From positions 23,263-87,262 of the forward strand of contig NAVB01000875.1 in NCBI GenBank assembly GCA_002179805.1: 64,000 nucleotides of DNA. Direction: 5' to 3'. Shown here in pieces: positions 20,289-44,500 of this stretch. The stretch's first letter is position 1, and the number at the start of each line of letters is the position of its first letter. The stretch is from Acanthamoeba lenticulata (taxonomy: Eukaryota; Discosea; Longamoebia; Acanthamoebidae). Below the pieces are notes generated by a model that was not told where the DNA came from, ran no database searches, and was given only the letters and a program-made list of their open reading frames with translations. The position numbers and the translations under genes were made by a program.

Positions 20289-22447
20289 TCACAGGGGCTG
20301 GGCAAAGGTGGCCAGCGCTGCCGCAGCGGCCTTGGTGATGAGGCCCATCTGCTCAAAGTCCAGGTACTCGGGCAGGTCCGTCGACTTGTGGTAGTGCGGG
20401 TACACCACCGCCGAGCCCGACGTCTCAAAGTAGCTGCGTGTCCCAGGGACGTGTCCTTTCGTCAGGCGCGGCCTCACGCCGAGATTGGCGGGGGAGAGAG
20501 GAATGAAGGGCGGAAGGGGGCAGCGTACCTCATGGCCGGGAAGCCGTTCTCCACGAAGCTCTGCTGGTCGGAGCAGCAGCCGCTCGTGTAGGCGATGGCG
20601 AGCTCGGGCACGTAGGCGCGCGCCAGCTTCTCGGTGGCCTCAGTGAGCCACACCGTCGTGTAGCGGTTCACCAACGCCAGCGTCACTCCCGTGGTGGGGC
20701 GCTTGTAGCCTTGGGGCCAGACGGAGGAGTGAGCGCAGCCAGCAAGAGAGGCCACAACACACACACACACACATCAACACATAAACACACACGTACCGAT
20801 CATGTCGGCGTTGAGCGCGGCGACGATGTTCTGGCCGGTGGCCTTCATCTGGTCAGCGTAGTAGCGCGAGCCGTAGAGGCCCATCTCCTCGCCCGACCAC
20901 GACGCGAAGCGGAGGGTGTAGTTAAACCTGTCGTCGCCGTGTTTGGAAATGTTCATGTTGCTGTTCATGTTGTCGGCCAAGAAGAGAAGAGAAGCGCAAG
21001 GCGACGGTACTTGGCGCCGCTTTGGGCAAAGGCACGGGCCAGCTCGAGCACGGCCGCCGACCCGGAGCCGTTGTCGTCCGCGCCGGGTGCGCGCTGGCTC
21101 GGGTTCTGCCGGGCACGCCCCACCCCACAAGACGCCGTTGGTTCGCGGCCTGTGGCTCACAATCCACAGCTGCTCCGTACAGAGAGGGACGTGGCGCGAG
21201 AGTCGTAGTGGGCGCCGATGATGACGATCTTGGTGGGGTCGCCCGCGCCCGGCAGCTCGGCGATCACGTTCTTCGAATACCCATCCCTGAAGCTCTGGGT
21301 CGTAACGGCCAGACCTGCGCGAGTTCATTGGGTTGGTGGGCGCTCGTTGTTGCCCAGCGGTGTGTGGGACGTACCGAGCGAGGCATAGTACTGGGCGATC
21401 CACTCCTGGGCCTCAACGGCTGCAAATAAATAAATGAATAAATATTCATAAATAAATAAATAAAACAATAAAGCCGCTTCACTTTCAGGCGGATGAACCT
21501 CCGGAAGACGTGGCGAGGCGGGTGAAGTAGTTGCTCAGGTGGTAGTCGTGCTTCTTGACCAGCTCCGGCTCGACTGACTCCACGAGCCGGGCGATGATCG
21601 GCTCGGCCTGGACGGCGTTCATGGCCGCCAGGCGGGCGCGCAGCGGGTTGTTTGCAAAGTCGGGCAGGGCCTGCCGCCGCGGCTCAGTGAGCGGGACAAG
21701 AGTAAAAGAGAGATATTAGAGGATGAAGTGGCGGTGCGGGAGTACCACGGCCTTGGGGGGCACGGGGACGAAGGTGGCCACGTTGCGGAACGGCTCGAGG
21801 GCATCGAGGTCGGACTTCTGGACCACGAAGCTGGCGCTGCCGTCAGGCGCGAGGAAGGACATGACCCGCGACGAGAGCGCGTCGGCGATGTCCTGCACCG
21901 CCAGCTGGTTGGAGCACTCCACCACCCTGGCGTGGTCCACGAGAGATGGCCGTGAAGTGAGCGCTTGGCAAGGGAGCGCGCGAATGAAGGGGAAGAGAGA
22001 AAGGCCACCAGAGCTCGTCGCTGGGCTTGTAGGGCGCGAAGGGCAACACACGGCAAGTGGGGCAGCACTTGTCCATCAGTTCGTCTTCAGCGGAGGCGTC
22101 GGCCACCACGAGCCCGAAGAAGCCAAACCTGTCGACGAAGAGAGCGGGTCCCGATACGCAACGATTGAGGGACCGAGAACGAGACATTCAAGTGAGAGAC
22201 AGTGTACCTGCCACGATAGTCATAGCCGAGTTCGAGAAGACGCTGTTCGTTGAGGGCCTCGATCACATCAGGCTGCAGGAAAATCCACGAAGGACCATCC
22301 TCCTGAGCTGCTCGATTCGAAAAATGGGACGGATTAGAAGTGTGCGCAACGCATCCAAGGGAGGAGTGAAAAAAGCGAACCAGCAACCACAGCAACAGCA
22401 GCAAGGATTAGTGCCAAGCCAAGGGCCCACCTCTTCATCACCATCAT
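20289..22447 (-). CDS. M28-family zinc aminopeptidase, secreted or membrane-anchored
   Basis: The N-terminal hydrophobic segment MKRWALGLALILAAVAVVAG is a signal peptide or anchor; the first ATG is at 22447 and another in frame is at 22438. A long N-terminal region (VIEALNEQRLLELGYDYRGRY, CCPTCRVLPFAPYKP) precedes the peptidase. The catalytic domain carries the M28 motifs: VIIGAHYDSR (first Zn ligand His and neighbouring Asp), GADDNGSGSAAVLELAR (bridging Asp), RFASWSGEEMGLYGSRYYA (catalytic Glu plus ligand Glu), ALNADMIG (Asp ligand), and a late His in VYPHYHKSTD. This domain layout matches secreted leucine aminopeptidases. About nine introns are present; one holds a CA repeat and another an AATA-type repeat. 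It probably works in the endolysosome or extracellularly. Confidence 0.9.
20755..20773. repeat. CA microsatellite in intron
   Basis: Short (CA)n tract inside an intron of the M28 peptidase gene, followed by related CA-rich sequence up to the splice donor near 20793. Confidence 0.7.
21424..21473. repeat. AATA-type low-complexity repeat in intron
   Basis: An imperfect run of AAATA/AATA units forms most of one intron of the M28 peptidase gene. It contrasts sharply with the GC-rich flanking exons. Confidence 0.7.
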
Positions 22448-31360: not shown

Positions 31361-33924
31361 ATGCAAGGCAGCCGGGCTGGTGCGCCTGCAAACACGGGGC
31401 GCCTCCGTGCAGTGCTGTTGATGGCAACGGCAGTCAAGCTCCTGCTCTTCCCGTCCTAGTGCTGCTTCCTCCTTCTTGATCGATTCCTGCTCTCAAATCT
31501 CAGCAGTTGGTCTGACTATCGCTGGCTCGCGCACAGCCGAAGCACAGACTTCGAAGTGCACCGCAACTGGCTTGCCATCACCCACACTCTGCCTCTGTCC
31601 AACTGGTACTATGAGGTGCGGTCGACTTTGCTGCTCTCCATCACCCCTTGTCCCACCGGGGAACGAGGAACCAGCGCGTCTGACACGGCGTGTGCAGTCG
31701 ACCTCAGAGTGGACGCTGGACTACCCACCCCTGTTTGCATGGTTTGAATGGTTGCTTGCTCACGCGGCCGTCTGGTTCGACCCGGCCATGGTCGAGTTGC
31801 ACAACCTCAACTACGCCTCGCCCGCCACCGTCCTCTTCCAGCGCCTCACCGTCGTCCTCTCCGATCTCGTCCTCTTCTGGGGTGTCCTCCGGTTCGATTC
31901 TCTTCTCGTGGTTGCACCCCCAATGGCTCATCTTCTCGTTTGGCTTGACATTCTTCATGCGCAGACTGTGCCGAACGCTGTTTCCGCTGGACGAGACCAA
32001 GCAAGTCGTGTGCGGCGCCCTCCTGGTCTTCAACCCGGGCCTCCTCCTCGTCGACCGTACGGCCGTCCCTCTTCTGCTTTTCTCTTCTTGTCTCTCTCTC
32101 CCTTCTATCTCCAACTCGCCGGCGCGCAGACGTGCACTTTCAGTACAACGGGCTGCTCATGGGCATCCTGCTCCTCTCCATCGACGCCATCCTCCGTTCG
32201 CGCGTACGTGCTGAGCTCTCGGCCCTTCTCGCCTGGCCTGGCCCGCGGACCCGCCAACAACTTCTGTGTATGAGCAGGTGTTGGTCGGGGCGGCCCTGTT
32301 CATGGTGGTGGTCAACATGAAGCACATCTTCGTGTACATGGCGCCGGCCTACTTTGTCTACATCCTCAAGAACCACTGCTTCTACGTCCCCGCCGAGGCG
32401 GCCTCGCCGTCGCCCGCCGGCACGCCCGAGGTCCCGCCACGACAGCAGCGTCGACCGCAGCGGCCAGTGGCGAGCGGCAGCGACACGGAGAGCAGTGACG
32501 GCGGTGGCACCGACAGCGACTGGGACGACGATGACGGCCACCACCACAGGGCGGCTCGAGACGACTTTGCGCCTCGCTTCAGCGTCGTCCGCTTCGTGCA
32601 GGTGGGCCTTGTGGTCATCGCCGTCGCCGTCGCCTCCCTCGGGCCATTCGTCTATCTTTCCCAGGTCCTCGCTTCCCTCTTGATCGTCGCGCGTGTGTCG
32701 TCTCGTGTCGGGTCGTGCGGTGGACTCACGAGCGCGAGGACAGATCCGACAAGTGCTGTCGCGGCTGTTCCCGTTTGGGCGCGGCCTGTGCAACGCCTAC
32801 TGGGCGCCCAACTTCTGGGCCCTCTACAACGTGGCCGACAAGATCGTCGCTCATGTGCTGCGTCGGTTCGGGCTGGCGACCAGCGCGAGCGTGGGCGTGA
32901 TGACCGGCGGCCTCGTGGGCGAGTTCGAGCACGCCGTGCTGCCGGCCATCAAACCCCTCCACACTTTTGTGCTCACTCTGGCCGCCACCACCGTACGGCG
33001 ACCTTTACTTCTCCTCTGTACATACGTATATATATATGACCAACACACCTGCGAACACAGCCGCTGCTGTGGAAGCTGTTGGACGGTGGGCGTGGTGGGC
33101 GCGTGTTCATCGCTGCGCTAGTACAGTGCTCGCTCTGCTTCTTTATGTTTTCGTGGCACGTCCACGAGAAGGCGGTCCTCATGCCCCTTCTTCTCCTCAC
33201 GTACTCCCTCCCCTCGCCGCTCTTGACCCGTAAGCCTTTTTAATTTTTTTAATTTTTTTCACATACATAAACACAAAACGCGAGCGCAGGCTGCTGGCGG
33301 GGGTGGACATGAAGTATGCGCGCATCTTCTTCTTTGCGTCGACCGTGGCGCACTACTCGCTCTTTCCGCTCCTCTTCACACCGCGCGGTGCGACCTGGCC
33401 CTTCCCGTGCTCAGCGCGGCGACCCACGAGCGTGCTAATGCTCCAATGCATACGTAGAGTACGGGACCAAACTGTTGCTCGTGGGCACTTACACCCTGGC
33501 CGCATGGGTCCTGCTGCCGCTCATGCACGCCCCGCCGCGTTCCATGTCCGACAAGTACCGTCTCTCACTCACCTTTCCTTACACACCAAGCGCCTCACAT
33601 ACGCCGGGGCTCTCACCCGTTCCTCATGAACGCAGGCGCGGACGTGGCCACGGCGGCGCGGCGGCGGCCGTGATCGAGCCGCTGGTGGGTCGAGGCGAGG
33701 GCGCCTACCTGGCGGGGCTGGTTGTGGTCGAGCTCTACGGGTCGTGGCTGCACGCACGCGTATGGGGCCCCGAGCGCATGGCTTTCCTGCCATTGCTGCT
33801 CACTTCCCTCTACTGCGCGCTCGGGCTCCTTTACGTCTTCGTTTGGCTCTACCGAGACTTCCTCGCCACCCCTTCTCCCTCTTCGTGTCGGTCCTCCCCC
33901 GCGCCCCTCAAGCGCACGACTTGA
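31361..33924 (+). CDS. ALG8: ALG8, dolichyl-P-Glc:Glc1Man9GlcNAc2-PP-dolichol alpha-1,3-glucosyltransferase
   Basis: ER multi-pass glycosyltransferase (GT-C, ALG6/ALG8 family) that adds the second glucose to the N-glycan precursor. The start [13 protein letters not shown] is followed by a TM segment and then, across an intron, [47 protein letters not shown] and [20 protein letters not shown]; this catalytic loop region is nearly diagnostic. Later [20 protein letters not shown] and [15 protein letters not shown] match ALG8 rather than ALG6. The C terminus is [21 protein letters not shown] non-conserved insert rich in Pro, Ser, Asp and His (about 32391-32565) sits in a loop before [19 protein letters not shown]. 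Around nine introns are present, including a GTGCTG donor after TTCCCGTCCTA. Confidence 0.93.
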
Positions 33925-33994
33925 TCCCAAAAGAAGAATACGAGAAAGAAGGGGGCGAGCGATTTTATGCAGGTTTGGGGAGTGCTTCTTCTGC

Positions 33995-34629
33995 TCAGTA
34001 GTCCTCATCGTCGCCGAAGAGACCCATGCCCTCACCATCTCCGCCAAGAGCGTCGTCTTCCTCCTCCTCTTCCTTCTTCTTGTCCTCCTTCTTCTCCTCG
34101 GCAGCCGGGGCAGCGCCTGCAGGCGTGGGCGCAAGCAAGGAAAGGCGGTCAGCCGCAGCAACTACGCCAGAGCTCGGGAGGCGAATGGAGAGGAGGGGGC
34201 TTAGAAGGATCACGAACCTCCAGCGGGGGCAGCGGCGGCAGCAGAAGAACCACCAGCAGACGGAGCGACGGCGACCGTGGACATGAGCAGGTCATCCAGG
34301 TTGCGGTTGCCAAGCACGCGCACGTACAGCCTACAGAGTTGGAGATGTAAGTTGTTGGTCATCAGCAACCAATTCACACCACTAAGAAGATGGTATCTAA
34401 GTACTTGGTGTAGAAGGGAGGGACATCGATGCCAGCAACCGACAGAAGCGCGGTCAGCTTGTCGGCCTGAGGATCGAGAGCAGCTGTGAGATATTGGGTC
34501 TCTTTTCTTTTTCAGAAAAAACTACTGAAGACGTACGTTGATGCTGACACCAGCATCGTGAAGAAGAAGGGCAGCGTATGTGACGGCAAGGTCGTGCTTT
34601 TCAGTGATGAGTGCGGGAGTGGTGGCCAT
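33995..34629 (-). CDS. RPLP1: 60S acidic ribosomal protein P1
   Basis: Stalk protein that recruits GTPase translation factors. The N-terminal helical domain is MATTPALITEKHDLAVTYAA, LLLHDAGVSI, then LTALLSVAGIDVPPFYTKY across an intron. The hinge is Ala/Gly-rich (AAAPAGGAPTPAGAAPAAEE) and the acidic end is MGLFGDDEDY, close to the eukaryotic P-protein signature D[ED]MGFGLFD. The C terminus here is GLFGDDEDY rather than the more common GFGLFD, but the layout is standard. Three to four introns are present. Convergent with ALG8, 70 bp between stops. Confidence 0.95.
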
Positions 34630-34938
34630 CTACAATCAAAAGATGGGCATAAGTTAATGAGATCCAATCACTTTCATGGTGCAAGGCAGCTGCCTACTGT
34701 GCTGAGTTTTGAAGTCTCGTGGGATGCGACTTAGCCTTCGAAGGAAAGGGACCACAAAGCTCGCAGCAACTGGGTGGCTAGGACAGAAGGGGGAGAGGAA
34801 AGCCGATACAGACGGGAGAAGCAGAGCTTCACCCTTGTCGACCCAACAGACGTCGGCCACCATTGGTCAATGTTTTTCGTTTTCCCAAACGTTTCCGAAA
34901 CATTTTTACACGAGACGAAGCAGAACAAGAGGGAGATC
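34630..34938. other. Intergenic region
   Basis: Upstream of RPLP1 and downstream of the coiled-coil membrane protein. No supported gene or repeat. Confidence 0.5.
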
Positions 34939-35793
34939 CTACTGCGCCCTGTGGAGCGAGTCGATGTGCTGCCGAAGCGCAGAGATGGTTTGTTGTGGCC
35001 AGTGGTAGTTGATGAGGGCTCGGAGGTGGGCATGATAGAAGTCCGATAGGAAGTTGTCGAGTCCAAGGTACCACACGGTCACTTCGCACAACAGAAGGAT
35101 AGCGACAAAGTAGAAGACTAGTCGCATCAAGAAGCCGCACGCGCTCATGCTGTCCTCGTATCGGGTGCGATTGAAGTGCTCGGCGTAGAGCTTCGCCTCT
35201 TGCTTGTAGGCCATGACTGCAGCGCACACTTCTCAATCAGACACTCGAACCCGGGTGGAGATGAGCAAGAGGAAAAGGGGAGTGGGCAAGTTACTCTCAT
35301 GGTCGACCTCACGAAGCTGAAGGTCAAGCTGATTGCTCTCTTCTGTGACCGCTTTGTATTCCTTGTCCAGTGCTTCAAGCTCGGCCTACAGCATTTCATG
35401 ATGGTCAGCAAGAAGGCCAGGGTTGCTGGTGGCCAAAACGTACGCGAGCTTGGCGGGTGCGCCTTTCGAGGATGTCGAGGTCGTCAGGTCCGTTCTGCTG
35501 CTGCGCAAGCCGCTGAGCCTCTCTGAGGGAAGGTGTTGTTAAGCCGACAGCACCCCCCCCCCCCAAACACTTCCTCAAGCACGCGCAAGGGCACAGCAGT
35601 GCGCACTCTTCCTTCTTGGCAATCTTGCCAAGCATCCCTTCAACTTCGCTCAGCTCCTCATTCAAGTCCTCTGGCTTTGCGGGACTCTGCCGGGGGTGTG
35701 AATCTTTGCTCTTCGAGTGTTGGGTGAACAACGTACGGTTGCGAGGCGGAAGAGTTGCTTGGAATTGTGGACCGTGGGCGTCCGAGAGGCCAT
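34939..35793 (-). CDS. Uncharacterised coiled-coil protein with C-terminal membrane segment
   Basis: Not recognised. Five exons join to give MASRTPTVHNSKQLFRLAT, then PEDLNEELSEVEGMLGKIAK, REAQRLAQQQNGPDDLDILE, AELEALDKEYKAVTEESNQL and DLQLREVDHE. This is a heptad-like alpha-helical region of about 100 residues. After AYKQEAKLYAEHFNRTRYED comes a single strong hydrophobic segment, MRLVFYFVAILLLCEVTVWY. A lumenal or cytosolic tail of about 45 residues follows, containing HLRALINYHWPQQTISAL. The layout recalls SNARE-like or tether proteins, but the tail after the TM is longer than in tail-anchored SNAREs. One intron contains a 12-base G/C homopolymer (35553-35564). Confidence 0.6.
35553..35564. 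repeat. Homopolymer C12 tract in intron
   Basis: A run of twelve C on the plus strand (G on the coding strand) lies inside an intron of the coiled-coil membrane protein gene. Its length may be a sequencing artefact or polymorphic. Confidence 0.6.
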
Positions 35794-36225
35794 CTTATGC
35801 AATCGCACACTGGTGTTTTGGCGCGAATCGGCCCAGCAACTCGGCAAACCACAATAAATTAAATTGAGGAACGCAGCCAAGAGGACGAGGAGAAGCTGAG
35901 TCGCTATTCCTCACGTCCTTTATGAACCGTCGGTAGCAGGGCCTGATCATCTTTTGTCTCTTCGGGGACATGGTGAGGCTGGTGGCTGCCGACGTTTGCA
36001 CTTGGACGGAGACCCAAGCCAGGTACCTTCAAGGGAAGGTGTGCGCTCCACCTTCGGGCGGGATGAGCCACTTTCTTGGGACACGGTGCCTACATCTTCA
36101 CCAACTTGTTCAGAAAGAAAAAGATGCTTTAATTGCAGTAGAATAAGAGTCAAAACAGCGACGAAGAATCTAATCCTCCGCCACGATGATGAATGCCCGA
36201 AGCTATGGATACAACTGGAGCGGAA
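35794..36225. other. Intergenic region
   Basis: Between the coiled-coil protein start and the histone-fold gene stop (both minus). Includes a purine-rich stretch. The plus-strand frame at 35954-36241 shows no domain and is not called. Confidence 0.5.
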
Positions 36226-37442
36226 TTACCACTTCTGCTGAGTCATGAGCTGAGCGAAGCGGACATCCTCCTCGGTCACCTCCTTGCGGCCGACGAAGTG
36301 AGAGCTCCTGCTCGACGCCTGGATAAGGGAGACGAGGAAGTCCTCGGTGGTGGCCTGCATGACAGCGTAGCTCTCGGCGGAAAGCTCAATGCCGTCCCAC
36401 CTGTTGACGACGTCAACCAGCCTCTTGAAGGCGGCAACGTTGAGGCAGTTGGTCTCCTCCTCAGCCTCCTCGGCGCCCATGTCGATCTCCTCATCTTCCT
36501 CGTCGGAGAACTCCTCTTCGGCGTCTTCCTCCTCCTCCTCCATGCCGTCCTCCTCCATGGCCTCGCCATCGACGGACTGCTCGCAGGTCTCGGCAGCAGA
36601 CTCCTCAGTAGGACCCTTCCAGTAGAGGGGGCGACCCATAATGTTGAGGACTGCGAAGAGAGCAACTAAGCGAGAGATCACACCAGTACTAAGATGAACA
36701 AGGATGCCGTACCGTTCAAAACGTCGCTGACGACGACCTGAGCAGACTCCCTGTACTCGGCGTGAACAACCGACCTCTCAAGAATGTAGCGCAGGTACTG
36801 CTCCATAAGGGTGCGGACAACCTCTGCAATTGATTCTCGATTAGCTTATTGAGCACAGCTCGCGGCTGGTTCAAAAGACGTCGTACCAACAGCACCGGGG
36901 TGCATCTGGATCTGACCATCAGAGGCGACCTTCCTGATGCCATCGTCAATCGAGGCACGGAGGTTATTGATCTCAGTAGTAAGGCCATCGTAGAGCTGAG
37001 CCACCTCCTGCTCGGCGTTGGAGATCATCTCGGCATACTTGGAGATGGTGGAGGTGACGCGCTTCTCCTGCTGACCCAGGTGGGAAAGGGCAGAGTCGGT
37101 CTCCATGCCCAAAGCCTTGGCAAGCTCGGCAGCCTCCTTGGCCTCGACGTCGAGGGCAAAGGGAGCGTCCACTTCAAGCGAGAGCTCGTCCTCGGGGTAA
37201 ATCTCCTCGCCCTCCTCATCGAGATCCTCGTCCTCCTCATCTTCATCTTCCTCATCTTCATACTCGGCGTCTTCCTCCTCCTCTTCCTCCTCCTCGGCCT
37301 CCTCAACGTTCTCGACCTGCTCTTCGGGCTTGGTAGCGGGAGCAAGGGTCTCGGTCGGCTTCAGGGAGATCTCTGCAGCGAGCTGCGGGATGTTCTCCTG
37401 GGGCTTGATGTTCTCAATGTCGAAATGCGAAACGGCGGCCAT
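36226..37442 (-). CDS. Fused H4-like and H3-like histone-fold protein with acidic arms
   Basis: 363 residues from three exons (37442-36887, 36823-36713, 36650-36226); total coding length 1092 bases, in frame. Residues about 1-165: short start MAAVSHFDIENIKPQENIPQ, a long Asp/Glu run (about 45-90), then a coiled coil. Residues about 169-232 form an H4-like histone fold: IRKVASDG aligns with H4 IRRLARRG, and residues 189-232 align without gaps to H4 R55-Y98 with 12 identities, ending MGRPLYWKG against H4 QGRTLYGFG. An acidic Glu-rich linker (about 233-290) follows. Residues 297-363 form an H3-like fold: FKRLV matches H3 FQRLV, and residues 320-358 align without gaps to H3 L92-I130 with 8 identities. 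There are no basic tails. The protein may be a nuclear histone-like, chaperone-like or TFIID-like factor; its role is unknown. Confidence 0.85.
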
Positions 37443-37714
37443 TGTGGAAAGGGCTTCGAGTACCAAGCGTCTGTTATGCGGTGGGTTGAAAGAAACTGAG
37501 CAACCAGCCGTCTGTTGGTTTTGTGCTTGCCTTGCCGGCTCCTTGAACGTTTGGGCGGTTTGGCGCCAACGAGCAACGGCCACGTTTCGCGCCAACGCAC
37601 CAACGGATTCTGTGTTTTGCTTTTGAATTATGCTTTCGTATCTCTTTTATTTTGAAAAAGAAAAAGAAAAAGATTTAAAATTGTAAATAGCAGCTGTACA
37701 GCCCAACCGATCCA

Positions 37715-40700
37715 CTACTTCTTACGGAAGCCCTTCTTGGCGGATTTCTGCATGACCTGACCCTCGTAAAGGCTATTGATCATCGCCTCCAGAGTCTCTG
37801 GGGTGTATTTTATAAACTTGCCGGCGTTCGCGGTGAAGGTGCTCGCGTCATGTCTATTTGGCGCACCGAGTCAGTGCACTGACTCACTTAAGTGGTGCAA
37901 AGGCGCAATGGTGGCCGTACGCTGCAAGAAACTTCTTGTAGGGGCCCAGCACTAGCGCTCGGATATCGCTTCGCAACTGCTCGCACAGCTCCTCGTCGTG
38001 AATGGAGAACCTATGTAAAGAGTAGAGGTGCCACGTTACACACGAGTACGATTTTGAGTTTGGTGGGGAGCTCTGCCACACCTCTTTTGTGACGCGATGA
38101 CCTCCTCCACTTCCGCATTGAAGCCCTGATGTACAAAGGCGGAGAAGGGGCAAGTGAGAAATGCAGCACAACACGCATGGACACCTCAGCCATTCTTAAC
38201 ATACCGAGTACTTGGCCTTGAGCTTCTTCTTGAGCTTAGAGCTAAGCGGCTTCTTCGCATAGTCCTCGTCGTCCTCCTCCTTCAGGTTGGCCATCACATT
38301 CAACCAACTGTGTGTTGTTGCAACGGTGAGAGGTGTTATCTTTGGGTGAACTTCGAGAAAGAACGGTGGGCGCTTTACCTCTCCTTGTAGGTGTTACGCT
38401 CGGCTGTAAGCACATCCTGGAGGTACCGCGTGAACTTGGGCTCGACATGGGCGGAAAGGTCCGAGTTGTTGACGTTGGAGGATATGTAGTATGCGTTGTT
38501 GAGGACAAACACGTTGGCCAGCGCCTGCAATTACACAGCCAGACCACGAATAAGTCAGGCTCTCAACCTCCTCGCAGAGCGCGAAGCACAGCGTGGCCAC
38601 CCACCTTCTCTTTCTTCTTTGTTTTGTCGGCCTTGTCCTCAAGATTGGAGAGCAGTGCCTTCAGGATTCGCGCTGTGATGCATCAACCGTCGTGAGCACA
38701 TGCAGCACAAAGGGCAAATGACGTTAACGCATGACGGCGTACTGATGAGCTCGGTGAACGGGGAGACCGTCTGCTTCTGGGAACCCGTGTTTCCAGTGGG
38801 CGGCGGCAACACGGACTCGACCACGGTCTGGTACTCGCGCAGTCGCTTCAAGTAGTGGAGAGCCTGTCGTTTACGAAGCACCTCAAACGCGATGAGTGCA
38901 CGGCACTTCAGAGTCCGATAAGCAGGAGAGTCGTAGGTCGCACGTTGGACGTCAGCTCAGAGACGGTGCCGTCCGCGGGCACGCCCTTGAGGGCGTCGTG
39001 CGTAATGTCCTCCTCGAACTCTGGCGAAGAGGATGAAGATAAGTAACTTATCCTCATGGGCAGGTTCCTAGTCTGGTTCTGAAGGTGGAGGCATGTACCA
39101 AGGAACGATCTCCGAAGTGAAGCCGAGAGTTGAGCGGCAAAGTCGTTCAGGTCTTCGTTGGCTTTGCTGCCCACCTGCGTCGTCCCCACAACACCCAAAC
39201 ACATCTCGCAGGCTCAGCTCTCCACATTCCTCAGCCCAGAGCAGGGCGTGAGCCGCGCGTGCCTTGAGAGCAGCCTGGAACTCGTCCAGCGTGGCCGACA
39301 GTTGCTCCCAAATGTCAAAGAGCGGAAACACGCCAAACACACGATCTGAAGTCTTCTGGTGCTTGATGATGCTCTCGCCTATGCGCGGAGCACGGAGCCC
39401 AACGTCAGGCGTCAGCAGAGGGAAAAGGGAGTCAAACTAACCAAGGTACGGCGCACCTGTGGTGATGAAGAGGTCGAGGCCGTTTTCGAAGATGCTCGGG
39501 TAGATTGAAGCAAAGTAGGTCGGATCGATGAAATCAGTGCCCAATTTGCGCTCATACTGCGAAGCCAACGTCAACCCTTGGGATCGAAACCGGAAAGGGC
39601 GGGGAGGTGCACCTTGAGCAAGATGAGGAAGACTTGCAGGAAATAGAGGTACTTGTGCGACCCGCGCACGTAGTCGCGCCCACTGGTCTGGGGGAGGGCC
39701 ACCTGGCCCGCCGACGCCTTCCTGCAGCGTGCATAAGGATTAATTGCCCTCCTATCTTTTGGTATACGACAAGAAGTGAGGGACGTGCATCTCGTCGAGA
39801 TTGCGCGAGGGACGGCCGGCGTAGATGATCTGGTCCAGGTTGAGCGACTGCAGCGTCAGCGTGAGGAACTGCGATCGACACTCCTGTCATGCGGCGAGCA
39901 GCAAGGACAACCACCGCAAGTAAGTCTCGGCCCGCGAGCGAGGAGAGGGTCGACCAACCCGACCTTGTAGATCTTTTGATAGTTGTACTGCTTCTGATGC
40001 TGAAGTTCGAGCGTCATCTTGCGCATGTTTGTGATCATATCCGCCGGCCACGGTGCTGTATGCGATGCCGCGTCGTGCGGTCAGTAAGTGACCATAGCGC
40101 GAGCAGGTGCGGGTGGATGTATTAAATTATACCGTAAACTTGCGTGCCGCGCACGATGGTCTCAACCTTGGCCTCGGGCAGGGCATCCATGAGGTCGAGC
40201 GGCCGGCTGTGCTCGCCAATGAGGAAGGACAGGGCGTCCTCCGTCTTGGCCACCGCTAAACGTTGCAGGTGTTGCTGTCCCCGTCACGTACATGCACAAT
40301 TAATTGCCGAATCATGTGAGAGCACCATCACTGCAGAGCCTTTTCTCACCAGTTTGGACAACGCTGACTCCGCGCTCTTGAAGTTGACGTTGGCTTGGAG
40401 GAAGACGATGCCCTCGCCCACCTGAGGTACGCGTAGTGTACATCCAATGAGCGGTTAAAGGTGGTTAATCGTCTTCGGGACGACTCTTGAAAATGCATGG
40501 ACGGGTGGATGGAGAGGGGGAAGAGCACCTCATGCATGTACTTGACGTACATGTTGATTCGGTCCTGCCGAAGGATGGGCACCAGGAGCTTTGTGGGAAG
40601 CCTGTAGGTGTTTGACGTCACACAAACACACATGAGATCCTGCAGAAAGGCTAAGACTAGGCTTCCGGCAGAGGAGCAAGAGGAAACACAAGACCCCTGT

Positions 40701-41490
40701 TGGATGACGCCCTCGACTCGTCGGGCCGTGCCCAAGATATCGAGCATGTGTTGCATCGAGGCGATGGTCTCGTCCACGTCTGAAGCACAAATCAATGAAG
40801 ACCCGATAGATTCGAGTTGTCAGTCGCATCACAAGTCCAGCGTATGTCGGAGTGTCGTACTTGTGAAGATGGTCTTAAGCTGGTTGGTGCGGTTGTTGAT
40901 GGAAGCCATGCCCTCCTCGAGCGACGACAACCGGCCCTCGAACGACGTCATGATACCGACCTGGCTCCCAGCCTTGTATCAGCCAGCAAAGACGAACGAA
41001 TGGTTGGGAAGAAGAGAGGGGGGGGGGAGGCACCAGCTTGTCAGTGAGCTCCTGCGACTGCTGGAGGCTCTGCTGCAGCTCATTGACCTTGTTCTTGTCC
41101 AGCTGCAGGCTCTCCAAGTCTGCTCAGCACAACGTTTAGCGGTTTGGCCTCTAAGTGGTGCAAGAAGGAGAGGGTTGTACCTTGTCGCTTGGTGGCCCAC
41201 GCGGCTTGTCCGCTCATGATGACGCTCCCGCCAGCTGGCGGCGAGGATCCTAGTAGGTTGGTCCCCGAACCGGCCCGCGTGAGCATGGGCGACACCTTGA
41301 TTCGTGTTCCTGGGGCGGGCGAGGGAGGTTCAAGCCGCCCGCCACTGCGGGTGCCGCTGCTGAGAGACCTCGCAGAGCTCACATGCGTCAGTTTGGAGCC
41401 GGTCTCGGCGCCCGCTGACCGCCGAGGCTTCTTGCCCGTGTCGCTCATCTTCGCCTTCGTCTTTATGTTGGTCTTCTTTTCCTTGTCCAT
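37715..41490 (-). CDS. EXOC7: Exocyst complex subunit EXO70
   Basis: Exocyst subunit that binds PI(4,5)P2 and tethers secretory vesicles at the plasma membrane. The N terminus is Ser/Gly/Pro-rich (RSAGAETGSKLTHVSSARSL). A coiled-coil pair follows (LESLQLDKNKVNELQQSLQQ and MTSFEGRLSSLEEGMASIN), then helices such as DVDETIASMQHMLDILGTAR, LPTKLLVPILRQDRINMYVK and FLQANVNFKSAESALSKLV. The C-terminal Exo70 domain ends with HDEELCEQLRSDIRALVLGP YKKFLAAYG-type sequence and KFIKYTPETLEAMINSLYEG, the conserved 'KYIKYTPE.LE..L..LFEG' end. More than twelve introns are present. The start at 41490 gives MDKEKKTNIK; an in-frame Met at 41448 is an alternative. It diverges from the importin gene, with only 80 bp between start codons. 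Confidence 0.9.
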
Positions 41491-41570
41491 TTCCTTCAAC
41501 CTGGCCGTTTAAACCAACAACTTCACCCCATTTGATTCTGCACGGCAGTTGTTGTGTCAGTGCCTCTGCC
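41491..41570. promoter_or_regulatory. Very short bidirectional promoter region (EXO70/importin)
   Basis: Only 80 bp lie between the divergent start codons of EXO70 (41490, minus) and the importin-13-like gene (41571, plus). Both promoters and both 5' UTRs must share or overlap this stretch, unless transcription starts inside the neighbouring coding region. Confidence 0.5.
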
Positions 41571-44500
41571 ATGGAAGAGCAAATCAAAGCAATCGAGAGG
41601 GTCCGTGCTATCGATCTGTCCACTCATTGTCAATCGTGATTTGCTCCCCCCCCTTCCCATTTTGACACTGCTGTCCTGCTCAGGTAGTGCAACAAGCCTA
41701 TGGGGCTGCAGGAGGCGCCCGGGACGAAGCCAATCAGTACGACAACCCTTCTCGGCTCACCTTGCCCAATCTTCCCTCACTGGTTGCGGGACTTGGGCAC
41801 ACAGGGCTTTGCTCACGTTCCAGTCGTCCAAGGAGGCCTGGCAGCTCACTCCCCACCTCTTTGCTTCCTCCGTACGGCTCCTCCTTCTTCCTTGTCTTGG
41901 TGGTGAGCTGATCGTCGTCTGCTATTCGCGCCTGCTTGCTGCTGCAGTCGATGGAGGTGCAGTTCTTCGCCGCCCACACGCTCTACTCCAAGATTCGGCG
42001 AGAGTGGTACGCCCGTTCACCACCCGCTCGCTGCCGCTGCACCGCCTACGCGGGCTTGGAGCTTGGTCCCCGAGCTCACGCGACGTGCGTGCAGGGAGCA
42101 GTTGAACGACGAAGAAAAGGTCTCAGTGCGCGGCGTCGTGCTGCAGCTGCTGCGCCACCTTCTGTCCCAGGTTTGCCCACTCTACCCGCCGCTCTTTGCC
42201 ACTCCTTTCTGATGCAGTCGCGCTTTGCAGGGACATCAACTGGTCGTCTCTCGATTGGCCCTCGCTCTGTCCGCCATCGGTGCGCAGCTTCTCTCATGGC
42301 CTCGTGTGTTATTTCCATGCGGCATCGCTGACATATCATAACCTTCCTCTCCACGACCATCGCCGACGTAAAGCTCTGCGATCGGTGCTGCGCGGACACT
42401 GGCCAAACGTGGTGACCGACATCATCTCGCTCAACTCCCTCGACGCCACGTACGTGCACGACGCCATTGGGCTCACCTGGTGCCGCGTTGTTTGTTTGGG
42501 ACTTACACTGGCGGACGTCCATGGGCGGGTCACGCCGACGCACTGCTGGGCGCAGCGGCCAGCTTGCCTCGGACATACTAGCGCAGATACCCGACGAGCT
42601 GGACTCCATCGCCATCTCCGAGACCAAAAAGTGTGCTCTTCTCTTCCCCGCCGTAAGCCTCACGTTTCGCCTCAAAGCGATCTTCCTCTGCCATCAGGGA
42701 GGATTTGTGTGCGAAGCTGCGGGAGGATGCCGAAAAGGTGGTCGGTCATGTACAGTGGGTCCTTCAACAGCCGCAGGTCCGTCTCCTCCCCACCTTCTCC
42801 CCTTTCAACTAGCGCCAGAGAGGAGCTCATGCATGCCTCCCCCTTGTGCGACTCTTCGAGCATAGGGCGCCAAGACCAAGGCTCTGAATGCCCTTCGCTC
42901 GTGGATCCGACTCAGTTTGCCGCCAGCGTACCGCCATCTTCGTCACTCTTATGCTGGTGTTGATGACAATCATCGCCCCTTTGTCTCCGATGCTCAGCTT
43001 CTTTGTCCCCCTTCCTCTGCATCTCGTCCATCATGTCGGCGGTCTCGAATGCAGGCTGGTGTTCAGCAATTCGGTGTTTGGGATGCTCTTTGGCAGCCTG
43101 GCCAGTCCCGACCTGTTCGGAGCCACCGTGGGCGTCCTCTTGGAGCTCCTCGCGAGGCCGGTACGTGGTTACCCCACGCTTGCTTGTGCTCCTCTCTGCC
43201 TGCTTGTTGCGACAACCGTGACGGCCACTCGCTGATCCCTCCTCGGCGTGCCTTCTCTCCGCCAGCTGGATGCCGCGGTGCTGCGCGGGGCGCTCCAGGC
43301 CGTGTTGCAGCTCAGGTCGATGTACGACCAGGCGGCCCAGAGCGGCGCGGTCTCTGTGTGCGAGGGCCTCGCGCGGCTGGTGGCCTCTGTGGGCGAGCAC
43401 AACGCCGACCTCATCATCGCCATGCCGGAGCAGGAGGGCCGGGCCCTCGTCGCCTTTATCCTCGAGTGCGACAGGCACCCGGAGCGCCACGCCGTCGCCC
43501 GCAACGCCCTCAACTTCTGGGAGCAGCTCGAGCGCGTATGCCCTTTCTGTCCCCCAGCCCAGCCCTGACCCTCATTTGACGCTCACGCTCGCCCTTCTCT
43601 CGCGCAGGACCTGACGGGCGCGCCGGCGGCGCAGGTGGCTGCCTTTGCGCCGGCCTACGGAGCGCTTCTCCAGAGTAAGAAGAAGTCCCTCGCGCGCCCG
43701 CAGCTTAGAGTTCCTTCCTCCCTGACGGCCTTTTTGTTGGTGGAAAATGCGTCCAGTCCTCGTGGAGCAATGCCGCTGTGTGCCCCATGGGGCCGATGAC
43801 AGCGACCACACCCTCTTGGCCGAGTTCCGAAGCGATGGTGCGTTGGCCTCCCAGTTGTGCGATGATGGGGATGTGGCTGACTTTGGAGATTTGTGGGGGT
43901 GAGCAGCGATGGGTCCCGTGCAAAGCTGCTACCGGCTGCTGGGCGTGAAATTCTTTGAATTCCTGGTCCAGTCGCTCCAGGCGAGCCCGGCCTCAGGGGA
44001 CCCCGTCCTGCTCGAATCGGTTCATCGTCCCTCCTCCTCTCCCGGCGGCCCTCCCGGTCCGGGTCGACGTTATGACCCGTCTCGCTTACGCCGTCATAAA
44101 AACAACAACGACGACAGGTCTTGTTCATCACGCGGGCCGCGGCGCCCGCCATCAACGTGCAGCTGAAGCGCGGCGGGTTCGACGCCCAGGCACGTTTCAG
44201 ACTCGACTAGAGGGGTCCCTTTCCCCCGGTGTGTCGGCTGGCTCGCTCACACACAGCCTGGTGGTGCGCGCATCGCGGCAGGTCTCGCCGCTGGTGAAGC
44301 AGCTCGTGACCCACTTCCTCCGATTTGCAAGCGAGCGCCAGAGCGACCCCGCCGGCGACACTCTTCGCGAGACCGGTCTCACCATGCTCGGTAACGTACT
44401 CCTCCTCGCCACGGCCTGCGATGTGATGTCCAGCAAGGCAATGTTGGGGGGCATGCGCGCTCATGGGAAGCCGCCTCGCGCGCGTTCACAACAACAGGCG

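Follow-up and report, generated by a model that had tools for sequence, protein, structure and literature searches.

What does a protein do that carries an H4-like and an H3-like histone fold in one acidic chain, in an amoeba that also possesses ordinary histones? The question is raised by a gene in a 64,000-nucleotide stretch of Acanthamoeba lenticulata DNA (the window; contig NAVB01000875.1, positions 23,263 to 87,262), which forms part of contig C664 in the analysed assembly of 48.5 Mb and 1,825 contigs. Encoded on the minus strand between 36226 and 37442, with its ATG at 37442, the gene is translated across three exons into a protein of 363 residues with an isoelectric point of 4.05, containing 25 Lys or Arg and 103 Asp or Glu. 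Almost certainly, this is a nuclear gene that occurs in two haplotype copies, is shared with Balamuthia and other relatives and encodes a single-chain H4-H3 pseudodimer, or doublet, devoid of tails and of most basic DNA-contact residues and equipped with long acidic segments. Such a protein probably handles histones or other proteins rather than packaging DNA.

The two folds are, in sequence, nearest to H4 and H3. The initial annotation had proposed one gene with an H4-like fold followed by an H3-like fold, which is borne out by the translation and by profiles of the separate halves, and had counted 12 of 44 identities to H4 and 8 of 39 to H3. Both counts were reproduced, the first against the H4 of the same genome; it was matched by 21 of 20,000 shuffles of the segment, whereas 4,606 of 20,000 shuffles reach the 8 identities to H3, so that the second count fails as proof by itself. 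Since identity to H3 alone is at chance level, the H3-like assignment rests on the profiles. These were built from nine sequences per half, taken from the family described below, and a search with each fold had been named as a check on the original proposal. The H4 half was assigned to H4 chains in the PDB with an expect value (E) of 1.5e-5, the best 60 of 99 matches all being H4 or two Cse4-Scm3-H4 constructs; the H3 half was assigned to H3 chains at E 1.1e-6, the best 60 of 345 all being H3, CENP-A or one Cse4-Scm3-H4 construct. One PDB construct is labelled only Scm3, and we take it to contain H4. A full-length profile of four relatives found as its best match a single chain of Cse4, Scm3 and H4 (E 6.9e-6), and the best 60 of its 276 PDB matches were all H3, H4 or a Cse4-Scm3-H4 construct.

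Within the amoeba's own genome, scored with the doublet loci left out, the H4 half gave 20.5-21.2 bits with H4 genes and next 10.9 with an H3 variant, and the H3 half gave 27.0-30.4 bits with H3 genes, then 13.5 with H2B and 12.4 with a cenH3-like exon. The TAF9 exon scored 3.2 and 2.4 bits against the two halves and the TAF6 exons at most 2.0, a value lowered by the splitting of TAF6 among exons. An identity as TAF6-TAF9 was rejected because TAF exons reach at most 3.2 bits versus 20.5-30.4 for H4 and H3 and separate TAF6 and TAF9 genes exist, which also weakens the earlier suggestion of a TFIID factor. As canonical H3 (MARTKQTARKS...) and H4 are separate genes in this genome too, the doublet is an extra gene. 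The CENP-T histone-fold model was likewise rejected, the H3 half scoring 18.6 bits, below the cut-off of 28.1; the model is unspecific, giving 33 bits with the genome's own H4 genes and 30.4 with a separate exon labelled CENP-T-like by eye. The Pfam Histone family matched eight of eight relatives within an E limit of 0.1 (lowest 4.9e-8), with 20.3 bits for the window protein and 24.4 for relative P0001, both below the curated cut-off of 26.4. Weak matches to TFIID-18kDa (TAF13) occurred in three of eight members (best E 0.0019), no search being aimed at SPT3. In a small tree the kinship of the H4 half to H4 was backed weakly and that of the H3 half to H3 was not backed.

The coordinates, the strand and the three exons given in the initial annotation were reproduced, including the ATG, two GT...AG introns and the protein length. 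The gene and its product are laid out as follows.

36887..37442, minus strand: exon 1, running from the start codon through the N-terminal motif, the acidic arm and the helical extension into the first part of the H4-like fold; GT donor
36824..36886, minus strand: intron 1, 63 bases, GT...AG; the second haplotype differs here by 3 substitutions and a gap of 2 bases
36713..36823, minus strand: exon 2, alpha2 and the start of alpha3 of the H4-like fold
36651..36712, minus strand: intron 2, 62 bases, GT...AG
36226..36650, minus strand: exon 3, which completes the H4-like fold (GRPLYW) and goes on through the acidic linker and the H3-like fold to the stop codon
37383..37415, minus strand: N-terminal motif ENIKPQENIPQ, residues 10-20
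37182..37325, minus strand: acidic arm, residues 40-87, with a run of 12 Asp/Glu, the longest of the protein
36948..37154, minus strand: conserved helical extension, residues 97-165, in the model a short helix followed by a long one that continues into alpha1 of the H4-like fold
36613..36947, minus strand: H4-like histone fold, residues 166-235, within which both introns fall
36448..36612, minus strand: acidic linker, residues 236-290, 55 residues, 55% Asp/Glu and no Lys/Arg
36229..36447, minus strand: H3-like histone fold, residues 291-363, at the extreme C terminus

Splicing as drawn is supported indirectly, by the breakpoints of relatives at the intron sites and by P0013, a single EukProt Trinity transcript that carries both folds. 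P0001 spans both intron sites; P0007 equals P0001 for 190 residues and diverges at the first of them, and P0005-P0010 likewise run into other sequence at the end of exon 1. P0015 joins at the second intron site and thereafter equals P0001 but for two differences, and P0015-P0017 come in from other sequence at the intron 2 point. Because P0007 departs and P0015 joins at intron sites, the intron positions appear to be shared among the relatives. As a separate observation, an EN..P motif near the N terminus was seen in the window protein and in six of nine full-length relatives; the second EN..P copy in P0001 reads KEN, reminiscent of degrons of the anaphase-promoting complex/cyclosome (APC/C), and its Lys is not conserved.

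The H4-like and H3-like folds are predicted to form a histone-like pseudodimer. In an AlphaFold2 model of relative P0001 they pair within the chain, so that the intramolecular pairing supposed at the outset was recovered as a prediction. The model places helices at residues 102-115 and 120-180, with a predicted local distance difference test score (pLDDT) of 65-70 at the start of the helical extension and below 50 in the segment matching the acidic arm. A structural search, also proposed in the initial annotation, did match viral doublets to the P0001 model, yet this match ties with single-chain H2A-H2B; among viral proteins, the fold search was led by giant-virus histone-like proteins and named doublets.

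The basic tails and most of the basic DNA contacts that mark nucleosomal histones are lacking in the doublet. Positions were assigned as DNA contacts or four-helix-bundle sites on general background about the nucleosome, not computed from coordinates. Over 14 basic DNA-contact positions in 10 sequences (140 cells), with H3 R116 counted as clamp instead, Lys or Arg is kept in 24, chiefly at H3 R69 (9 of 10) and H4 R36 (8 of 10); including H3 R116, an Arg in every one of the 10 sequences, the count rises to 34 of 150. Not one of the 10 sequences is basic at H4 R39, R45, K77, R78 or K79, or at H3 R63, R72 or K115. The window protein does lack the contact residues named earlier as lost (H4 R39/R40, H3 R83), the R83 equivalent being basic in one sequence of the 10, P0014, and the claim of lost tails and acidic arms was borne out, the N-terminal arm being acidic. 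The sequence thus argues strongly against an ordinary nucleosomal histone, and the earlier statement that this is not a nucleosome histone is supported as probable.

The loop-2/alpha3 clamp is intact in the H3 half, where all 10 sequences have R116 and D123. In the H4 half all 10 retain D85 but none has R78 at the aligned position, an invariant Arg standing two residues before it. The face corresponding to H4-H2B contact is largely frozen and yet unlike H4: every sequence has Arg for D68, His for Y72 and Tyr for H75 and retains the Glu of E74, and Y88 and R92 are variable or hydrophobic. On the H3-H3 face, all 10 have Phe or Tyr in place of H113 and Phe in place of L126; the aromatic residue at H113 aligns with a Tyr of the amoeba's own H2B. 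A face that is altered yet invariant suggests a specific protein partner.

Relatives were sought among 5.8 billion proteins by a word-based search, two of its three rounds scoring about 8,000 candidates that shared most words. It yielded 23 family members: nine are full-length doublets (P0001-P0004, P0011-P0014 and P0021), and the other 14 are fragments, which cover the N-terminal part in ten cases and the C-terminal part in four; no wider relatives lay within reach of this search. P0004 comes from Balamuthia mandrillaris, a member of the Centramoebida (Amoebozoa, Discosea), and P0015 carries the source name histone H3/H4. Both folds align in all ten full-length sequences, the window protein and nine relatives. 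In nine sequences, P0021 not being counted, the linkers span 48-70 residues and are 46-59% acidic, and the net charge is -62 to -79. P0024 and P0025 (E 2.7 and 4.4) were excluded as unrelated. P0024, a JGI protein of 277 residues named histone H4, consists of H4 and then a long extension with an acidic end. In its record P0004, the Balamuthia orthologue, bears the name putative transport and golgi organization protein 1, perhaps owing to its acidic and coiled parts.

In its own genome the doublet gene stands at two places, C664 and C767, the latter being the other haplotype, as one alignment of 10,036 bases has 97.4% identity; C767:1-10000 (L028) is the second haplotype of window positions 33265-43200. 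The two coding sequences differ by 14 synonymous and 5 non-synonymous changes, as well as by small length changes in the acidic segments, and the ratio of non-synonymous to synonymous rates (dN/dS) of 0.09 fits purifying selection. The contig pairs C122/C420 and C296/C1164 are also near-equal matches, and the assembly may contain both haplotypes widely. A Pfam scan of six other open reading frames (ORFs) in the window gave matches in four (ALG6/ALG8, RWP-RK, Ras and helicase), typical of cellular genes, no dedicated search for viral genes being made; the ORF at 1948-2880 has a helicase C-terminal domain and a long stretch rich in Lys, Asp and Glu. Elsewhere in the genome, an exon (L041, C135:36493-36723) resembles by eye a cenH3-like H3 variant (VPFVRLVRQYTHDLKEGVRWQ...), perhaps a centromeric histone, and two divergent H2B-like genes (L007 and L044, C927:24810-25133 and 21590-21943) lie about 3 kb apart, one of them very unusual (FSPFIWQVCQQVHPDLTMSKKAM...).

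Double histone folds are already known, among which a eukaryotic H4-H3 one with acidic arms is a conserved and unusual variant. Canonical H3 and H4, the closest sequence families of its halves, are separate, basic, tailed proteins, whereas the doublet is fused, acidic and tailless. SPT3 of SAGA is another eukaryotic protein whose double histone fold acts as a protein module; its folds are TAF13/TAF11-like, unlike the H4- and H3-like folds of the amoeba doublet. The Marseilleviridae have H4-H3 doublets (Melbournevirus 7n8n_A) with the same H4-then-H3 order in one chain. According to the available part of a 2026 review (PMC13088155), the Marseilleviridae doublet packages DNA in nucleosomes. That of the amoeba differs in being cellular, intron-bearing and strongly acidic and in having lost most basic contacts. 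The eukaryotic double histone folds named in that part of the review are Sos, ABTB2, SPT3 and the animal HSIH-DHF proteins, with no H4-H3 one among them; the H domain of Sos is H2B-H2A-like rather than H4-H3-like, and the HSIH-DHF proteins, of which H2A/H2B-type ones are named, have at least 60% identity to nucleosome histones. Excerpts of two further papers describe eukaryotic histone doublets as not confirmed up to 2022 (Talbert 2022, PMC9145170) and histone fusions as unobserved in eukaryotes (Irwin and Richards 2024, PMC11222145). Among the open-licence papers listed in literature searches, judged by title and the start of the abstract, none describes this H4-H3 doublet family. POLE3-POLE4 is a histone-fold dimer with H3-H4 chaperone activity, as reported in the part available of PMC6179962, a parallel in function only and not in kinship; its two chains have H2B/H2A-like folds and reside within DNA polymerase epsilon, in contrast to the single H4-H3 chain of the amoeba.

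A tentative proposal, ranked first, is that the doublet may work as a histone chaperone or chromatin-assembly factor. The pseudodimer would dock on core histones through the four-helix-bundle faces used for the stacking of histone dimers, with the acidic arm and linker masking the basic surface by which the bound histones would contact DNA; these would stay soluble and off DNA until deposition, and the fusion would ensure correct pairing without a separate partner. A first guess for the contact would be H4-facing, because the aromatic residue at the H3 H113 position aligns with the Tyr of the amoeba's own H2B. In this proposal, histone binding, the surface used for it and a nuclear location are inferred. 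Several points weigh against this chaperone proposal. The pattern K[KR].[KR] is absent from all 23 family proteins and from the window protein, so that nuclear entry is unsupported by sequence, and acidic segments occur in many proteins. Docking through the four-helix-bundle faces is a guess, these faces being altered, and the invariant Arg of the H4 half may be a shifted clamp instead of a binding residue. The predicted pseudodimer fold rests on one small alignment, since a single-sequence model of P0013 was poor (mean pLDDT 40) and showed no intrachain pairing. For POLE3, moreover, the last helix is reported to suffice for pulling down H3-H4, its histone fold not being needed, while for POLE4 it was the histone fold that counted (PMC6179962).

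The chaperone proposal is ranked ahead of a rather unlikely one, in which the doublet would belong as a subunit to a complex of chromatin or transcription (SAGA, TFIID, kinetochore or remodeller-like), its pseudodimer serving as a structural brick as in SPT3 and its acidic arms touching partners other than free histones. Against it, the folds score with H4 and H3 rather than with the genome's exons for TAF6, TAF9 or a CENP-T-like protein, themselves separate genes, and none of the papers listed in the literature searches was on a complex containing an H4-H3 fusion. An interaction module outside chromatin, like the H domain of Sos, with the pseudodimer making cytoplasmic protein contacts, is improbable, as the halves are nearest H4 and H3 whereas the Sos domain is H2B-H2A-like, and no catalytic or signalling domain was found above the Pfam cut-off in the chain. 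Domestication of a captured giant-virus doublet, possibly as a decoy poisoning viral or host nucleosome assembly, draws on the shared order with Melbournevirus, on the leading place of giant-virus proteins in the viral fold search and on gene traffic between Acanthamoeba and medusavirus, reported in the portion seen of PMC6450098; yet the gene has two introns, no viral doublet stands among the best 60 of 276 PDB matches, although a doublet could score on both halves, and IMG/VR scans, a weak test, gave no relative, which leaves capture very improbable and descent from Marseilleviridae or giant-virus doublets not demonstrated. Hardly credible is a divergent nucleosomal pair standing in for H3-H4 in part of the chromatin: the two folds, in the order seen, suit an H3-H4 dimer, and viral doublets are reported to assemble into nucleosomes in vitro (PMC9145170), but the strongly negative charge, the missing basic tails, the few basic contact cells and the ordinary H3 and H4 genes of the genome all speak against it.

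A broader and doubtful reading is that an H4-H3 fusion arose or persisted in eukaryotes as a single-chain stand-in for H3-H4, capping or swapping with real dimers through a rewired four-helix-bundle face; a giant-virus source would be its bolder sub-case. If it were true, histone fusion would not be barred in eukaryotes once freed from tail and DNA duties. According to a published proposal, a ratchet before the last eukaryotic common ancestor, such as dependency on tails, fixed the histones as separate proteins, and the animal double histone folds are close to histones in the accessible part of the 2026 review (PMC13088155). A conserved non-animal H4-H3 fusion, with its tails and most DNA contacts gone, is a test case for the ratchet idea. 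In a lineage related to the hosts of giant viruses that carry histone doublets of their own, it possibly represents a new class of histone-handling protein.
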